From Pseudomonadota bacterium (GTDB lineage: Bacteria > Pseudomonadota > Gammaproteobacteria > Acidiferrobacterales > UBA6901), in contig JAJYEX010000007.1 of the NCBI GenBank assembly GCA_021785515.1, forward strand, positions 62,001-126,000: a stretch of DNA of 64,000 bases, read 5' to 3'. The notes beneath the pieces are model-generated. The model ran no database searches and had not been told where the DNA came from. It worked only from the letters and a program-made list of their open reading frames with translations. This document shows, in pieces, positions 36,836 through 44,691 of the stretch (within the stretch, counting starts at the first letter, position 1; every line of letters starts with the position of its first letter). The translations under genes and the position numbers were made by a program.

Positions 36836-37330
36836 ATGGATTTGTTCAAAAAGACCCTCGATCCGATTGTCGCCCTGGCGATCATTGCACTGCTCGACGT
36901 GTTTCTGTTCGTGATCGTAGGCGCCTGGACCGTGGGTGGCGGGGAAACGATGATCGCCGGTCTGGTCGCAAAATATGTGCTGGGTGCCAAGACCCTGGCG
37001 CGCATTCCCTTCTGGACTCTCGTGTTCACGCCCACCTGGGCCTACTGGAAGATCTACATCAGCCTGGGCATGGGCTTCGGTGCGTTTGTGGCGGCCGTGC
37101 TCAGCAAGGAATTCTACTGGCGTGTTCCGCGCCATCTGTCGGAATGGGTGATGATCACCATCGGCGGATTGCTGATGGGCATCGGCATACGGATGTCGTT
37201 TGTATGCAATGTCAGCACGTTTTTCGGTCTGACCCCGGAAATGAACCTCGGCGGGTATCTTGCCGTGAGCGGTATTGTGGCGGGTGCCTGGGTCGGCAGT
37301 CTGATCTACAAGAAGGTTCTGGAGGCGTAA
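36836..37330 (+). CDS. YeeE/YedE family membrane protein, N-half type, 164 aa
   Basis: Inner-membrane protein with about four helices (for example PIVALAIIALLDVFLFVIVGAW at about 10-31). The YeeE-type signature GGLLMGIGIRMSFVCNVS has one conserved Cys facing the channel. YeeE/YedE proteins move thiosulfate or related sulfur compounds through paired cysteines. Here the family appears as two consecutive polypeptides, this one and the next, which may make one transporter. First gene after the sigma54 promoter; GGGAG precedes the ATG. Confidence 0.85.
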   Translation: MDLFKKTLDPIVALAIIALLDVFLFVIVGAWTVGGGETMIAGLVAKYVLGAKTLARIPFWTLVFTPTWAYWKIYISLGMGFGAFVAAVLSKEFYWRVPRHLSEWVMITIGGLLMGIGIRMSFVCNVSTFFGLTPEMNLGGYLAVSGIVAGAWVGSLIYKKVLEA

Positions 37331-37334
37331 AAAC

Positions 37335-38048
37335 ATGATAACGGTCACCGGCCAGTGTGTTGCGGCCTTTATTTTCGGCAGTACGGTCGGGGTGCTTGTG
37401 CAGCGGTCCCGCTGGTGCAATACAGCGGCACTGCGCGATGCAATGCTTTTCAAGAGCTACCGCAATACCAAGGCGTTGCTGGTGGGCATGATGATACTCA
37501 CGCTCGGGTTCACGGGGTTCATCAGCGTCGGCAACGGTAACCCCATGCGCTTTGATGTCGGACTCAACCAGTTCGTTGGATTGTTTCTTTTCGGCATCGG
37601 CATGGTGCTGGCGGGAGCCTGCACGGTGTCTTCATGGGTCAAGACCGGTGAGGGAAATATTGGCGCCATGTGGGCGCTGCTGTTCCTGATCGTCGGGCTG
37701 TTCGTGTCTTCGCTGCTTTGGTCGTTTACCTACTGGCCGCCGGCTCCAGCGGCCATGACCGGACAGCCTAATCTGGCGGGCCTGCAGTTTGGTTTTGCGG
37801 ACGCGCTGACCCTGCAGCAGAAGACGGGTATTCCGGCAATCGTGTTCGGGCTGATCCAGTTTGCCGCGCTGTTTGGTCTGTACCGCGCGATCCTGCGCAA
37901 GGAGCGGGCGATACAGATGGCGCGAGGTGTGGTGCCGTCCGAGTCCGCCAGTCCCGCTTCGCGCGCCGGTGCAGCGGTGCCTGAGGCTGTCGGTGCGGCG
38001 ATGTCTGACGGTTCGGGGGCAAGTGGTTCCTTTCAAGAGGAGGCGTAA
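37335..38048 (+). CDS. YeeE/YedE family membrane protein, second half type, 237 aa
   Basis: About five to six helices. RSRWCNTAALRDA near residue 25 and GIGMVLAGACTVSSWVKTGEGN near residue 88 each carry a conserved Cys of the YeeE/YedE fold, as used for thiosulfate passage. After the last helix (about residue 190) a soluble Ala/Ser-rich tail of about 45 residues follows. The gene starts 4 bases after the preceding one, with GAGGCG as ribosome binding site, and ends 3 bases before tusA. Both halves together are likely to import a sulfur compound that is handed to TusA (inference). Confidence 0.86.
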   Translation: MITVTGQCVAAFIFGSTVGVLVQRSRWCNTAALRDAMLFKSYRNTKALLVGMMILTLGFTGFISVGNGNPMRFDVGLNQFVGLFLFGIGMVLAGACTVSSWVKTGEGNIGAMWALLFLIVGLFVSSLLWSFTYWPPAPAAMTGQPNLAGLQFGFADALTLQQKTGIPAIVFGLIQFAALFGLYRAILRKERAIQMARGVVPSESASPASRAGAAVPEAVGAAMSDGSGASGSFQEEA

Positions 38049-38051
38049 GAC

Positions 38052-38357
38052 ATGGGCCTGTTCAGCAGCAAGAAATCCGAAAATCCGGACGCGCAGGCGC
38101 CCGGCACGGTCACGCTTGGTGATCAGCACTACACCGTGAGTCAGGTCGTGGATGTTCTGGGCGATTCGTGTCCACGGCCTCAGCTCATGACCAAGAAGGC
38201 GCTCAGCAAGGCGGCGGCCGGGGCGGTCATCGAGGTCAAGGTGGACAATCCGACTTCGATGGAGGCGATTCCGACCATGATGCCGGAGCTCAACGGGTCC
38301 CATCTGGGCACGATCAAGGCAGAGCGCTACTGGCGCGTATTCGTGCGCAAGAACTAG
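38052..38357 (+). CDS. tusA: TusA/SirA family sulfur carrier
   Basis: Small cytoplasmic persulfide carrier, 101 residues. The active motif CPRP sits in DVLGDSCPRPQLMTKKALSK (Cys about residue 41), followed by VIEVKVDNPTSMEAIP, as in the TusA fold. It has an extra N-terminal extension of about 25 residues (MGLFSSKKSENPD) compared with Escherichia coli TusA. Directly behind the YeeE pair, it can accept sulfur entering the cell; DsrE-like partners follow in the operon. Confidence 0.92.
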   Translation: MGLFSSKKSENPDAQAPGTVTLGDQHYTVSQVVDVLGDSCPRPQLMTKKALSKAAAGAVIEVKVDNPTSMEAIPTMMPELNGSHLGTIKAERYWRVFVRKN

Positions 38358-38366
38358 GAGATCGCC

Positions 38367-38606
38367 ATGTCCGCAGCCCGGATACAGATGACATTTATTG
38401 CGCTGGTGGGATTTGCCACCACCGTGGGTTCGTTTGTCTATTTGCTGGCGAAGCCGCCTGCCTATTTGCGGGCCACCCGTGATGGTGTGCCGTTTTTTAC
38501 ACCGCCCGTGATCAATCCCGTGAACGGCAAGTCGCTTAACGTGAATACGCTGGTGCGCGACTACAAGGGTGTGGCCGGACCCGGCGCTGCCGCCGGGGTC
38601 GACTGA
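38367..38606 (+). CDS. Small single-helix membrane protein, 79 aa
   Basis: One N-terminal membrane helix (MTFIALVGFATTVGSFVYLLA, residues 8-28), then a periplasmic or cytoplasmic tail with PPAYLRATRDGVPFFTPPVINPVNG and a Gly/Ala-rich end. Ribosome binding site GGAG precedes the ATG. I do not recognise the family; position implies a membrane subunit of the sulfur system. Confidence 0.75.
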   Translation: MSAARIQMTFIALVGFATTVGSFVYLLAKPPAYLRATRDGVPFFTPPVINPVNGKSLNVNTLVRDYKGVAGPGAAAGVD

Positions 38607-38736: not shown

Positions 38737-39012
38737 ATGAACACAAAACAGATCCTGCTGTACTGTGTCAGCTGCCTCGGGGTGACTCTGGCCATGCTGG
38801 TAATCATGTTCCGGTATGCCGCGGTGTCTCCGCAGTTCCTGACTCATGCACGCACGCCCCAGTCGATGGAGTCGTTTGCACCCATCAATCTGGGCGGCAT
38901 CTATGGCACGGTGTCCATGACCGATCTTGTGGGCAATTACCTGCAGCATCCGCCGAAGGCAGCGGCGCCGGGTGCCGGCGCAACTGCGCCGGTGCGGGTC
39001 GGCGGCTGCTGA
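38737..39012 (+). CDS. Small anchored protein, 91 aa
   Basis: A membrane helix at residues 6-28 (ILLYCVSCLGVTLAMLVIMF) carrying two cysteines (YCVSC), then an exported tail (SPQFLTHARTPQSMESFAP) that ends with a terminal Cys (RVGGC). No known family recognised. Cysteines at both the membrane and the extreme C-terminus suggest a thiol or metal role in the sulfur operon (inference). The next gene starts 7 bases after the stop. Confidence 0.7.
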   Translation: MNTKQILLYCVSCLGVTLAMLVIMFRYAAVSPQFLTHARTPQSMESFAPINLGGIYGTVSMTDLVGNYLQHPPKAAAPGAGATAPVRVGGC

Positions 39013-39019
39013 GGCGTTC

Positions 39020-39994
39020 ATGCCGCGCCTGTTCCTGCTCGCACTGGGGTTGCTGATGGCTAGTGGTGCCGCAGTGGCGGCACCGCGGCACGGGCGCGAT
39101 TTTTTCTACGTGTCCCGCCTCCAGGATCCGCGCGTGCGCGGTGCGGCGGTGGTCGATACGCGGCCGCTTACGGTCTGCACGTCGCATTCGCTGCCTGCTG
39201 CCCGATGTCTTCCGCCGCGGGACTTTCTCGGGCCGCATGACCGGCTGGAGAGTTTCCGGGACATCATCTGGGTCCTGGGTGCGGCCGGGCTCTCCGGCCG
39301 GGAGACGGTCGTGGTAGCCGGCGACAATCCGGTGCGGCGCGATTTTGTGGCGGGAGTGTTGTACCTCGCTGGCCAGTCGCGGGTGGCGGTGCTCACCGCG
39401 CCGCTCACGCCTCTGGTAGCGCGAGATCCCGCGACGCCGGGCACGGCACGCGGAATGTTCCGCAACCCGGTGTATCAGGGCAATCCGCGTGCCGCACTGA
39501 TTGTGCTGCGCGCAGAGCTCGCCCGGGCGCTGCGCTCGCCGCATCCGCCCTATGTGCTCGACGGGCGCAGTCGAGCAGCGTACTGGGGTCAACGCATCCG
39601 CGCGCTGCGCGGCGGACATCTCCCGGGTGCGCAGCTGCTGCCGATGTCTGCGCTGCGGCTGGCGGTGGCGGAACATGCGGTGGAGCTGCCTTCAGTCGCC
39701 TCGGCCGTGGTGTATGCGAACAACGCCTACGATTCCATTGCCTATTTCACTCTGCTGCGCGCGGGTGCGGGTTTTGCGACCTCGGTTTTTCCCGGGGGAT
39801 GGATGGACTGGGCGAACCACACCGGGCTGCCGGTGGATTCGGAAACGTATGATGAGAGGCCCCTGCGCAGGTCCTCGCGCCCGGCGTCGGCAGAAATTCC
39901 CCGCAAACCGAAACCCGATCCCTTTGCGCCGATGGTTATGGGACTGCTGCTTGCCGCAATCACCGGCTACTGCTTTGGAAGGAAGCGTTCATGA
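39020..39994 (+). CDS. Exported, membrane-anchored double rhodanese-like protein lacking the catalytic cysteine
   Basis: 324 residues. Signal peptide (LFLLALGLLMASGAAVAAP, residues 4-22), two rhodanese-like domains in the periplasm (about 40-140 and 170-275) and a C-terminal anchor (MVMGLLLAAITGYCF) before GRKRS. The second domain keeps the rhodanese pattern YVLDGRSRAAYWGQ and GGHLPGAQLLPM, but the active loop reads VVYANNAYDS where the sulfurtransferase Cys should be Ala/Asn. The first domain likewise has VVAGDNPVRR. It may bind sulfur compounds or act structurally rather than catalyse. The next gene overlaps by 4 bases. Confidence 0.75.
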   Translation: MPRLFLLALGLLMASGAAVAAPRHGRDFFYVSRLQDPRVRGAAVVDTRPLTVCTSHSLPAARCLPPRDFLGPHDRLESFRDIIWVLGAAGLSGRETVVVAGDNPVRRDFVAGVLYLAGQSRVAVLTAPLTPLVARDPATPGTARGMFRNPVYQGNPRAALIVLRAELARALRSPHPPYVLDGRSRAAYWGQRIRALRGGHLPGAQLLPMSALRLAVAEHAVELPSVASAVVYANNAYDSIAYFTLLRAGAGFATSVFPGGWMDWANHTGLPVDSETYDERPLRRSSRPASAEIPRKPKPDPFAPMVMGLLLAAITGYCFGRKRS

Positions 39995-40284
39995 CGGACC
40001 TCATGTTTCTCGTTTCCCGGCCGGATTCCGGACCAACACTGGCTGCGCTGATGCGTGCTTGCAGGCGCCGGGGTGTGAGCTGGGCGTGTTTTTTTACCAA
40101 CACCGGAGTGCGAACCCTGCTCGATCGCGCGGTGGTCGAACAGCTTGGTTGCGCATCCAGGGCGATGGCCTGCGAATATTCCTGGCAACGCCACATGAAT
40201 CATGCACAGTGTCCGGTCGAGCTCGGCAGCCAGACCAACAACAGCGCGCTGGCGGCTGAAGCTGCGAAAATCATCAGCCTGTGA
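39991..40284 (+). CDS. DsrE-family sulfur relay protein, 97 aa
   Basis: Begins MTDLMFLVSRPDSGPTLAAL with an alpha/beta DsrE-like fold; cysteines in WACFF, LGCAS, MACEY and AQCPV. It is a candidate cytoplasmic acceptor of persulfide from TusA. It ends KIISL, sharing the last residues with the next two genes. It overlaps the rhodanese-like gene in ATGA and is followed by the next DsrE-like gene after 9 bases. Confidence 0.75.
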   Translation: MTDLMFLVSRPDSGPTLAALMRACRRRGVSWACFFTNTGVRTLLDRAVVEQLGCASRAMACEYSWQRHMNHAQCPVELGSQTNNSALAAEAAKIISL

Positions 40285-40293
40285 GGGCGAAAC

Positions 40294-40569
40294 ATGAAGG
40301 CGCGCAAATCCATTCTTCTGCTCGGGCGGGTTGACCACACCGAGGCCATGCGGGTGGCAGCCGGACTGACGATCTTCGGACACAAGGTGCGTCTGGTGTT
40401 CATGACAGAACCGGTGGCCGAGACAGAGGAGAATATGCGTCAGGCCGAGCTGCTGGAACTGTCGGACATCGAGCCCGAGACCACGCTTGCGGGGCAGGAG
40501 TTGCCGTATGTCAGCTCGGCAGCCCTGTCGCTCGCCATGATCGAGGCCGACGCGGTCATCAGTCTGTGA
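40294..40569 (+). CDS. DsrE/DsrF-like protein without cysteines, 91 aa
   Basis: Starts MKARKSILLLGRVDHTEAMR and has GHKVRLVFMTEPVAETEENM, as in DsrE/TusC-fold proteins. No cysteine at all, so it is probably a structural subunit of a relay complex. It ends ADAVISL, like its neighbours. Spacing to the next gene is 13 bases, with a strong AAGGAGG in between. Confidence 0.7.
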   Translation: MKARKSILLLGRVDHTEAMRVAAGLTIFGHKVRLVFMTEPVAETEENMRQAELLELSDIEPETTLAGQELPYVSSAALSLAMIEADAVISL

Positions 40570-40582
40570 GAAGGAGGTGGTC

Positions 40583-40768
40583 ATGAATGTCGCCGTGTTG
40601 AATACGGGATTGTTCGCGGACAGGGAAACGGTGGAGGAGGCGCTGTCCGAACTTGAGGTGTTTCACGAGGTGCGTCGTTGTGATGCAACGAGAACGTCAA
40701 TGTCCGACGAGGACTGGAATCAGGTGCTGGATGTGCTGCTGGCTTCCGATGTGGTTATTTCTCTCTAG
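40583..40768 (+). CDS. Small TusB/DsrH-like protein, 61 aa
   Basis: 61 residues starting MNVAVLNTGLFADRETVEEA, with one cysteine (Cys33 in VRRCDATR) placed like the single Cys of DsrH/TusB. It ends SDVVISL, the same terminus as the two preceding proteins. ATG 40583 follows AAGGAGG by 5-6 bases; an in-frame GTG at 40577 overlaps that ribosome binding site and is unlikely. With the two genes before it, it could form a TusBCD-like three-subunit relay (inference). Confidence 0.65.
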   Translation: MNVAVLNTGLFADRETVEEALSELEVFHEVRRCDATRTSMSDEDWNQVLDVLLASDVVISL

Positions 40769-40789: not shown

Positions 40790-41713
40790 ATGAAAAGATC
40801 ATTATTGTGCGGAATTGCGCTGTTGACCAGCGGCGCTGCGTGCGCTGCGCCTTCGGCGCCGGCGCTCGTAGATGCCGCCTGGGTGGCGGCACATACGTGC
40901 AAGCCAGGTATCGTGCTGCTCGACATCCGCAATCCGATTGGCGGGGGCGGGGATCTGACGGCATATCTGCGGGATCATATTCCGTGTGCGGTGTACAGCA
41001 ATTACGCGACCGGTGGCTGGCGGATCAAGGTCGACGGCGCGCCCGGACTGGTGCCGCCGATCCCTGCGCTGGAGAAGCTTATTGGCGGGCTCGGGATCAG
41101 CAACAACACGCACGTGGTCATCTATACGGGCGGCACCAATGCGACCGACATGGGTGGTGCGGCGCGCGTGTTCTGGACGTTCAAGTACCTGGGTGACAAC
41201 AACGTGTCGATCCTCGACGGAGGCTACGCCGCCTACGTTGCGGCCAAGCATCCGCTTCAGCCCGGATTCAACAAACCTGTTGCGGCGGATTTTGTAGCAC
41301 GCCCGCGTCCCGAACTTCTTGCCAGCGAACAGGATGTGCAGCACGCCATGAAAGCGGGTATCCCGCTGGTGGACAACCGCCCCTCGGCCCAGTATCTCGG
41401 CATCAACCGGACCAATGTTGTGGTGCGCAACGGCACCATTCCAGGTGCCCGGAACCTGCCGGAGAACTGGATTACGCGCAACGATGGTGGCATGTTCCGT
41501 TCGCCACAGGCGCTGCGGGCCCTCTACGTTGCAGCCCACGTGCCGACGAGGGGTAAGCAGATTACCTTCTGCAACACCGGCCATTGGGCCGCGCTCGGCT
41601 GGTTTACGAGCTATGAGCTTCTGGGTGACAAGCAGGCGCGGATGTATGCCGGATCGATGTCGCAGTGGTCACGCAATCCGGCGTTGCCGGTGGTTCGGAA
41701 GGTGCGCGACTGA
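40790..41713 (+). CDS. Periplasmic rhodanese-type sulfurtransferase, 307 aa
   Basis: Signal peptide (SLLCGIALLTSGAACAAP, residues 3-21), then two rhodanese domains. The first (to about 170) has VVIYTGGTNATD in place of an active loop. The second carries the active-site loop ITFCNTGHWAALGWF with the catalytic Cys, as in active periplasmic sulfurtransferases. ATG 40790 has GAGGAGG upstream. It probably works on thiosulfate or persulfide in the periplasm and is partner to the cytochrome gene that overlaps its end. Confidence 0.88.
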   Translation: MKRSLLCGIALLTSGAACAAPSAPALVDAAWVAAHTCKPGIVLLDIRNPIGGGGDLTAYLRDHIPCAVYSNYATGGWRIKVDGAPGLVPPIPALEKLIGGLGISNNTHVVIYTGGTNATDMGGAARVFWTFKYLGDNNVSILDGGYAAYVAAKHPLQPGFNKPVAADFVARPRPELLASEQDVQHAMKAGIPLVDNRPSAQYLGINRTNVVVRNGTIPGARNLPENWITRNDGGMFRSPQALRALYVAAHVPTRGKQITFCNTGHWAALGWFTSYELLGDKQARMYAGSMSQWSRNPALPVVRKVRD

Positions 41714-41730
41714 GGGCGCACGACCGGCTG

Positions 41731-42372
41731 GTGAGCAGTGTGGCCGTGGCGATCGCTCTGGTCGCCACGGCCACGTTTTCCAGTGCGGTGGCTGGGGAAC
41801 GTACCCAGCGGTTTGCCCTGGAGATTGCCGTCCTCGCCAGTCGCAGTCAGCGCCTTCTTGTAGCTGACCTCACGCCCGCGCAGCACCGGAGACTGCAAGC
41901 AAAGATTGGCAGCGCGCTGGGAGTCCTTCCGTTGCTCGCCAGGGAATGTCTTGAAGAGCAACGGAAGGTGCACGAGCGTTCGCTGCTTGCGCGGCTGCAA
42001 AGGCTGTCGTCGGCCTATGCGCACGGGCAGATTGCGGCGCTGCATGCAGGGCTTGACCGTCTATCGCGGAGCTATCCCGTCGACCTGCGTGGACTCCTGC
42101 CGCTTCCTGAATCCTCCGGGGCGGTCCGCACGGGCCGCGCGCTCTATGATCGGCTGTGCATGGGCTGTCATGCCTACCCGGATAGCCAATCGCCGGCGCC
42201 GGCACCTGACCTGTTTGCCAGCGCGCGGGCACTGTCTGCTGCCGGACTCGTTGTGATCCTGCTCGATGGCGTACGCGGTACTCACTCGACAACGCTGGTC
42301 AACCCGCTAAGCAATCAGGACATTGCCGATCTGGCTGCCTATCTCAGACACGGAACGGAATCGGGCCGCTGA
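41731..42372 (+). CDS. Exported monohaem cytochrome c, about 213 aa
   Basis: Class I cytochrome c: export signal (VAVAIALVATATFSSAVAG), a helical linker with coiled-coil-like Leu/Arg stretches, then one haem site CMGCH in RALYDRLCMGCHAYPD and the terminal helix DIADLAAYL. The sixth ligand Met is not seen in the usual position: the segment reads GVRGTHSTTLVNPL where GxxMP is expected, with a His nearby. Start uncertain: GTG 41731 gives a signal without positive charges; CTG 41710 has GGAAGGTG upstream and would overlap the previous stop; GTG 41665 is also in frame. Last gene of the sulfur operon; likely electron acceptor (inference). Confidence 0.75.
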   Translation: MSSVAVAIALVATATFSSAVAGERTQRFALEIAVLASRSQRLLVADLTPAQHRRLQAKIGSALGVLPLLARECLEEQRKVHERSLLARLQRLSSAYAHGQIAALHAGLDRLSRSYPVDLRGLLPLPESSGAVRTGRALYDRLCMGCHAYPDSQSPAPAPDLFASARALSAAGLVVILLDGVRGTHSTTLVNPLSNQDIADLAAYLRHGTESGR

Positions 42373-43275: not shown

Positions 43276-44691
43276 ATGGGCGTAATCACGGAACGCGTGA
43301 CACCGCAGGCCGTGCGCGGCGAGCGGATCGCGCGTCTGGGGTTGTTCATGAGGCGCCACCAGGGTTCGATCGCTGCCCTGCAGTGGGCAGTTGTTCTGTG
43401 CTATCTGGCCATGGTCGTCGTGCCGGTTTTTCTGCCGCTGCCTTCCGCCGATACCCGGATCTGGGGCAGCTTCACGCGCTTTACCCAGTTTATGTTTTGG
43501 GGTGTCTGGTGGCCGTGCGTCGTTTTGTCGATCATGGTTTTCGGGCGCGCGTGGTGCGGCCTGCTCTGTCCGGAAGGCACGATCACAGAATGGGTCTCCT
43601 GGTACGGGCTTGGTCTGGGCATTCCGAGGTGGATGAAGTGGCCCGGCTGGCCATTTGTGACATTCATCGGGGTGGCGCTATATGGCCAGATGATCAGCCT
43701 GCACCAGTTTCCGGCGGCCACTCTGCTCATTCTGGGGGGATCGACGGTGGCCGCTGTGGTCGTTGGCCTGTTGTACGGACGCGGAAAGCGGGTTTGGTGC
43801 CGGCATCTGTGTCCGGTATGGGGCGTGTTCGCGTTGCTGGCAAGGGTGGCGCCGGTTCATTTCAGCGTAGACCGGGCTGCCTGGGATGGGGCGCCGTCGG
43901 GGGCGCGCACGAGCCGCAGACACCCGGTGAATTGTGCGCCTCTCATCAACATCCGCCGCATGGAGAGCGCTGCCGCCTGCCATATGTGCGGGCGCTGTGC
44001 CGGAGAACGCGGTGCGGTGCAGCTTGCGTTGCGCTCGCCCACTGCCGAGATTCTTTCAGTGACGGCCCCCGAAACCGGGTACCGGGCCGATGCCTCCAAC
44101 CTCTGGCTGGCGTGGCTGCTCGTGTTTGGCATGATCGGCGCCGCGCAGGGTGCCTTTCAGTGGGCAGTATCACCGTGGTTTGCTGCCGCTGACCAAGCGG
44201 CCGCAGCATGGCTTGGCGCACACGGGGTGTCCTGGCTGCTGCACCCATCGGGACACTGGTGGATCCTGATCGATTATCCGCGAAGCGGACATGTCTTCAC
44301 CTGGCTCGATGGTGGAATGCTGGTTGCCTATATCGCAGCCGAGGCCGTGATCGTTGGTGGCTGGGTTGGCGGCTGGACGTGGCTCGCGGCAATGCTCTGC
44401 GAGCTGCCCTGGTGGCGCATGGCCAGCGTGTTCAGTTTCTTCTCCGGGGCAAATCTGTTTGTGGGTTCAATCCTGCTTGCCTGGTCGCAGGACACCGGTG
44501 CCGTCAGCTTGCCGCGCTGGGCCGCAGTGGTCTGCATGGGACTGCTCACGCTGGCTGCGTTGTGCGGGGCCGCGCTTGCCGGACGGCTGGCGCGCCATCA
44601 CCGTGCTTCGGCAACTCTTGCGGTACTGGCCGCGGCCGCGTTGCCGCTGGGTGCGTGGGCCGTGGAATTCTTTGTCTGGCGGAAGCTGTAG
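43276..44691 (+). CDS. Polytopic 4Fe-4S membrane protein (NapH/NosR/CcoG-like), 471 aa
   Basis: About eight to ten helices. Iron-sulfur ligands are GRAWCGLLCPEG (about residue 98) and KRVWCRHLCPVWG (about 178), both C-x3-CP, then CHMCGRC (about 239) as CxxCxxC. This is the arrangement of quinol-linked membrane ferredoxins such as NapH, NosR C-terminus and CcoG. The C-terminal half has additional helices, including HWWILIDYPRSGHVFTW. No reductase or oxidase neighbour shows its partner; it may move electrons between quinone and the sulfur or hydrogenase systems (inference). ATG 43276 has a G-rich run just upstream. Confidence 0.8.
   Translation: MGVITERVTPQAVRGERIARLGLFMRRHQGSIAALQWAVVLCYLAMVVVPVFLPLPSADTRIWGSFTRFTQFMFWGVWWPCVVLSIMVFGRAWCGLLCPEGTITEWVSWYGLGLGIPRWMKWPGWPFVTFIGVALYGQMISLHQFPAATLLILGGSTVAAVVVGLLYGRGKRVWCRHLCPVWGVFALLARVAPVHFSVDRAAWDGAPSGARTSRRHPVNCAPLINIRRMESAAACHMCGRCAGERGAVQLALRSPTAEILSVTAPETGYRADASNLWLAWLLVFGMIGAAQGAFQWAVSPWFAAADQAAAAWLGAHGVSWLLHPSGHWWILIDYPRSGHVFTWLDGGMLVAYIAAEAVIVGGWVGGWTWLAAMLCELPWWRMASVFSFFSGANLFVGSILLAWSQDTGAVSLPRWAAVVCMGLLTLAALCGAALAGRLARHHRASATLAVLAAAALPLGAWAVEFFVWRKL

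Follow-up and report, generated by a model that had tools for sequence, protein, structure and literature searches.

Gene organization of the operon

The DNA analyzed here, called the window, is the whole stretch of 64,000 nucleotides. It carries three adjacent small open reading frames, designated P1, P2 and P3, which lie inside an operon of sulfur-related genes. Scanning of genome contigs led to the identification of 80 homologous loci in alpha-, beta- and gammaproteobacteria and SAR324, with carriers including Sedimenticola, Thiobacillus, Sulfuriferula, Thiorhodococcus, Maritimibacter and Magnetovibrio, while the P2 family, in close or distant form, was found in 26 of 194 related genomes. 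The genes of the operon are as follows.

36836..37330, + strand: YeeE/YedE sulfur transporter, C-terminal half (PmpA-like); PF04143 positions 172-310, E 2.9e-20
37335..38048, + strand: YeeE/YedE sulfur transporter, N-terminal half (PmpB-like); PF04143 positions 1-156, E 1.8e-20
38052..38357, + strand: TusA-family sulfur carrier; PF01206, E 1.6e-16
38367..38606, + strand: small protein with hydrophobic N-terminus; homologue in 68/80 loci, no Pfam family above cut-off
38737..39012, + strand: small membrane-type protein, inferred start; homologue in 64/80 loci, no Pfam family
39020..39994, + strand: predicted exported, C-terminally anchored rhodanese-like protein; PF00581, E 1.4e-6, homologue in 72/80 loci
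39991..40284, + strand: P1, DsrE/TusD-like subunit, 97 aa, ending ...EAAKIISL; putative persulfide Cys61 invariant, Cys74 near-invariant
40294..40569, + strand: P2, probable DsrF/TusC-like subunit by profile homology, 91 aa, without Cys, ending ...EADAVISL
40583..40768, + strand: P3, small subunit in the DsrH/TusB position, 61 aa, ending ...ASDVVISL; its single Cys is not conserved
40790..41713, + strand: predicted exported rhodanese with Cys-containing loop, inferred start; PF00581, E 1.6e-18, homologue in 65/80 loci
41665..42372, + strand: c-type cytochrome, at the end of the conserved operon; PF13442, E 1.1e-8, homologue in 68/80 loci

The two half-transporters correspond to PmpA and PmpB and follow the half-transporter logic described for them (PMC11582611). 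Each operon partner is present in 64-79 of the 80 loci, with all matches but one on one strand, and the gene order is colinear by best match in 49 of the 67 loci having at least eight of the genes; in these counts some loci are cut by contig ends, and the two rhodaneses are confusable by best match. The rhodanese-like protein at 39020-39994 lacks a Cys where the active-site loop normally has one, and its hydrophobic anchor, signal and start were read from the sequence. Just past the operon, at 43276-44691 of the window, lies a gene for a NapH/MauN-like ferredoxin-type membrane protein, homologues of which occur in only two of the 80 loci. A search of the open-access literature found no description of an operon combining rhodanese, PmpA/PmpB and TusA.

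The three small genes are tightly packed, and the start codon of P1 shares bases with the stop codon of the rhodanese-like gene before it (ATGA). Across the homologous loci the median gaps within the triad are 9 and 14 bases, most loci having the genes a few bases apart. The sequence-only reading had noticed that three neighboring proteins end in KIISL, AVISL and VVISL, with cysteines in the first and third only; both observations hold, the ends belonging to consecutive open reading frames on the + strand and the cysteine counts being five, none and one. The start of P3 is most likely the ATG at 40583 (61 aa) rather than the GTG at 40577 taken in that reading, because a ribosome-binding site, AAGGAGGTG, lies just upstream and the homologues begin at an equivalent Met.

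Identity of the three small proteins

Neither P1, P2 nor P3 reached a DsrE or DsrH model (PF02635 and PF04077 included) in Pfam and NCBIfam scans, so that naming the families needed evidence from folds and profiles; PF02635 was weakly matched by five of 67 P2-family members (best 0.0016). Profile searches against PDB sequences returned chance matches only, and fold comparison was needed. The AlphaFold model of P1, built with 69 sequences, has a pLDDT of 97.5 and aligned in VIA-align to ten DsrE-family structures at Z 10-12, pointing to a DsrE-type alpha/beta fold. Cys61 is invariant in the P1 alignment of 69 sequences. It aligns with the catalytic Cys of DsrE, which is invariant in all 104 E sequences compared (78 of the window clade, 11 of the YTD clade, 14 of a third group, and the type I DsrE from the same genome). 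Cys74 is near-invariant in the window clade and absent in the other groups.

According to hhalign, P2 matches type-II-like DsrF homologues over its full length (99.2%, E 8.7e-20), and P3 matches type-II-like DsrH homologues (94.5%). The P3 model (70 sequences, pLDDT 93.5) has a b-a-b-a-b topology, and the P3 alignment contains no invariant or nearly invariant Cys. The fold search with P3 (Foldseek/VIA) was unspecific, with matches at Z about 4-5 (Z 4.5-4.7 to DsrE/YchN); that no DsrH-type chain is among the matches listed excludes nothing. That P3 is a generic b-a-b-a-b unit, with matches not specific to DsrH, was counted against the assignment of the trio.

Phylogenetic analysis of E and F (FastTree) placed the window triads in their own clade apart from the YTD-like sets (support 0.71), the median identity between the two being 26% for E and 30% for F; the YTD-like sets in these comparisons come from Gammaproteobacteria. 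The trio probably makes up a cytoplasmic sulfurtransferase of the DsrEFH/TusBCD kind, P1, P2 and P3 being its E-, F- and H-type subunits, with P2 assigned by its profile match and a hetero-oligomer predicted. It is a little-described DsrEFH relative, close to DsrEFH type II and probably a separate clade beside it.

Structure of the C-termini

The codons of the shared ending are located at the following positions.

40270..40281, + strand: IISL codons of P1, with which its terminal beta-strand finishes in the AlphaFold model
40555..40566, + strand: VISL codons of P2, presumed terminal beta-strand from sequence comparison
40754..40765, + strand: VISL codons of P3, terminal beta-strand in the AlphaFold model; window-specific variant of V(V/I)T(L/V)

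In the models, the last element of P1 is a strand at residues 91-96, and the last strand of P3 spans residues 57-60. P1 aligned structurally over residues 1-97 to the chain ends of YchN (Z 12.3), DsrE (12.1) and TusD (11.8), and comparable ends are seen in solved chains, namely SDAVFSF in DsrF of Allochromatium vinosum, YDVILRF in TusC and CDRVVQF in TusD. In the type I set of the same genome, DsrF ends in DIVLSF and DsrE in DRLVVFGD. The C-terminus of P2 aligns, weakly, with those of DsrF and TusC. Between P2 and P3, hhalign aligned the terminal helix-strand unit alone (35%, E 4e-4), which is suggestive, and comparison of the P1 profile with those of P2 and P3 gave nothing usable.

The shared ending of the trio is very probably a fold edge. 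Each chain is predicted to stop with the last strand of a small alpha/beta fold and to carry no tail, as modeled for P1 and P3 and as the alignments suggest for P2. Such a strand would require hydrophobic residues at positions -4, -3 and -1 and usually a small polar residue at -2, and similar ends would recur because these requirements are shared. A common ancestral fold edge had been one of two proposals in the sequence-only reading, and it gains support from the modeled terminal strands of P1 and P3, the end-to-end alignment of P1, and the solved ends of DsrF, TusC and TusD. The shared ending would then be an ordinary feature, marking where the common fold stops. A C-terminal degron was also considered and set aside, the residues lying in a confidently folded strand.

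Variation of the C-termini among homologous triads

A complete triad in the same E-F-H order is present at 78 loci including the window (77 distinct), all hosted by sulfur bacteria. P1 ends in SL in 67 of the 77 distinct triads (VSL 42, ISL 25). P2 ends in SL in 28 and in ISL in 17, the others including INL, INI, LSI, MSF and VSL. The ends of P3 usually follow V(V/I)T(L/V/I/T), mostly VTL, ITL, VTV, ITI and VVV, with VST also occurring. SL, and with it ISL, at the end of P3 is restricted to the window species, its genus relatives having VTL; the ISL replaces the usual VVTL ending at the level of this species. The conservation of ISL in homologues was checked directly, and the exact motif is not conserved, given the P3 ends VTL, ITL, VTV, VVV and VST and the P2 ends INL, LSI and MSF.

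What is conserved in each of the three families is a pattern of V/I, V/I, small polar, hydrophobic and carboxylate, with no tail. Position -2 is S/T in 75 of 77 P1 sequences, S/N/T in 75 of 77 P2 sequences and T/S in 61 of 77 P3 sequences, and the profile alignment reaches the last residue of both profile and chain in 77/78 P1, 75/80 P2 and 73/80 P3 sequences.

ISL in all three proteins occurs in one of the 77 distinct triads, namely the window, which is also the sole locus whose three ends are identical over the final three (or two) residues. The marginal frequencies of ISL are 0.32 for P1, 0.22 for P2 and 0.013 for P3. When partners were shuffled among loci, which is a rough control since the sequences are related, about 7% (7.4%) of trials yielded one or more triads in which the last three residues were the same in all three proteins. 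Agreement of P1 and P2 ends within loci (11 versus 8.25 expected, shuffle fraction 0.14) and identity of the last four residues summed within loci (345 versus 338, shuffle fraction 0.25) were both not above shuffles. The exact triple ISL is thus a coincidence at the level of one species, on a terminal strand that the proteins share.

Alternative explanations of the ending

The frequent S, T or N at position -2 might have a common functional role, such as lining the cleft for sulfur transfer where the sheets have their C-terminal edge. The residue preferences at -2 given above are in favor, as are the ends of DsrF in the same genome (VLSF) and in A. vinosum (FSF). However, this position is occupied by A, V, I, F or C in the type-II-like paralogs of E and F, while TusC has R and TusD has Q, which makes such a role unlikely.

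The sequence-only reading had also suggested a docking or membrane-contact signal. Under such a scheme, each subunit would show the ISL terminus to its neighbor or to the membrane transporter. The end of P1 is indeed strongly conserved in the window clade (SL as counted above, the final two positions carrying about 3.7-3.9 bits), and the P1 chains stop exactly there, with conservation beyond the needs of a simple strand. But the ends vary among homologues and between subunits, they do not match within loci beyond shuffles, and the paralogous triad in the same genome ends in VVAF, VFIL and VCWR. Moreover, a C-terminal Strep-tag on DsrH type II left co-purification of the three subunits intact (PMC13293266), and the last residues of P1 and P3 sit in the modeled sheet. 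The proposed signal is unsupported by these data and is very improbable.

That one gene was recently copied into three, or that gene conversion acted on the ends, is barely credible, because apart from the helix-strand unit common to the P2 and P3 profiles no sequence similarity was found among the three families, the codons of the three ends differ, and each family has conserved relatives of its own throughout Proteobacteria and SAR324, a wide and separate distribution that would make any duplication ancient.

Comparison with known sulfurtransferases

In DsrEFH and TusBCD the catalytic Cys is located in the E/D subunit (Cys78 / Cys67), and the published relatives function as TusA-to-DsrE-to-DsrC relays (PMC3397948, PMC13293266). 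DsrEFH type II, known since 2026 from cable bacteria, is encoded in the cluster yeeE-tusA-dsrEFH; there Cys67 of the E subunit accepts sulfur from TusA and the complex hands it on to DsrC (PMC13293266, PMC13047784). The published criteria for type II include synteny with yeeE/yedE and tusA and a bit score above 80 to the HMMs, with three subtypes parted at 40% identity, and reductive dsrAB is present in 73.9% of the published type II genomes (PMC13293266 / PMC13047784).

The window trio resembles type II in having a run of three small genes next to those for a YeeE/YedE transporter and TusA, an E subunit with one invariant catalytic Cys, an H subunit without the Cys20 of type I, sequences missed by standard annotation, and homology of E, F and H to the type-II-like sets found here. 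It differs in that its identity to the YTD-type sets (26% for E, 30% for F) falls below the 40% subtype limit, and in the second conserved Cys (C74) of the window-clade E. Unlike type II, the window operon encodes its PmpA/PmpB-like transporter in two halves and also contains genes for a cytochrome c, two rhodanese-like proteins and two small proteins of membrane type, and its clade occurs with dsrA and soxB in sulfur oxidizers, whereas reductive dsrAB prevails in published type II genomes.

With type I (A. vinosum, 2HY5) and TusBCD (2D1P), the trio shares the E-subunit fold (Z about 12), the aligned catalytic Cys, the E-F-H order and comparable chain ends (DsrF DAVFSF, TusC DVILRF), but identity is about 17-20%, the window subunits are shorter (97/91/61 aa), and the P3 family is without the conserved DsrH Cys20. 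The single-subunit proteins YchN, MTH1491 and Sulfolobus DsrE/DsrF-like have the same fold as P1 by structural alignment. To our knowledge, single-subunit DsrE-like proteins are not arranged as E-F-H triads within operons for a transporter and TusA.

Proposed sulfur relay

Supplied by the exported rhodaneses, the split YeeE/Pmp transporter may import sulfane sulfur into the cell, as can be presumed from the published YeeE-family relatives. TusA would take up the sulfur as a persulfide and pass it to Cys61 of P1, which would become persulfidated and transfer it to an acceptor, most likely DsrC serving DsrAB; P2 and P3 would be non-catalytic structural partners. A relay with DsrC as the acceptor is somewhat favored. 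That one of the two rhodanese-like proteins is without the usual active-site Cys was counted against the relay. For the whole explanation, in which a DsrEFH-like trio with fold-edge ends serves in a sulfur relay, we estimate a probability of about 0.8.

A gene for dsrA above the cut-off was detected in 40 of 48 carrier genomes, compared with 51 of 299 in a baseline sample drawn across the phylum and unmatched for relatedness, and soxB was detected in 41 of the 48 carriers (a count with no baseline). Because dsrA is missing above the cut-off from about 17% of carriers, some of them fragmented MAGs, DsrC/DsrAB may not be the only sink. The operon is widespread in sulfur oxidizers and pairs a sulfur importer with a DsrEFH-like relay unnamed by Pfam and NCBIfam, making testable how periplasmic sulfur gets to the cytoplasmic Dsr machinery.

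Genome context

Three DsrEFH-like sets coexist in the same genome, namely type I, a YTD-type set and the window triad. The type I dsrEFH (C18:42.7-43.8 kb) adjoins dsrC and dsrA, while the YTD-type set (G000:C22:61416-63932; L027, L188) consists of a full-length YeeE, TusA and a type-II-like DsrEFH triad. The genome has two full-length dsrA genes (G000:C18:45309-46493 and G000:C11:636750-637937; 595 and 571 bits).

We tentatively raise the possibility, which we hold to be somewhat short of even, that the window operon represents a further undescribed DsrEFH class, marked by its separate clade and the second near-invariant Cys in E, and coupled to a split transporter, exported rhodaneses and cytochrome c. 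Such a class would carry periplasmic sulfane sulfur (e.g., from Sox) into the reverse-Dsr pathway and coexist with type I and type-II-like sets.

In the third group of triads (L141-L148, L150, L151, L167 and L170-L172), the H-like protein mostly ends in Cys/Ser-Trp (ISW, ICW, FCW), and in several loci the order is F-E-H, F and E being set apart by a gap.
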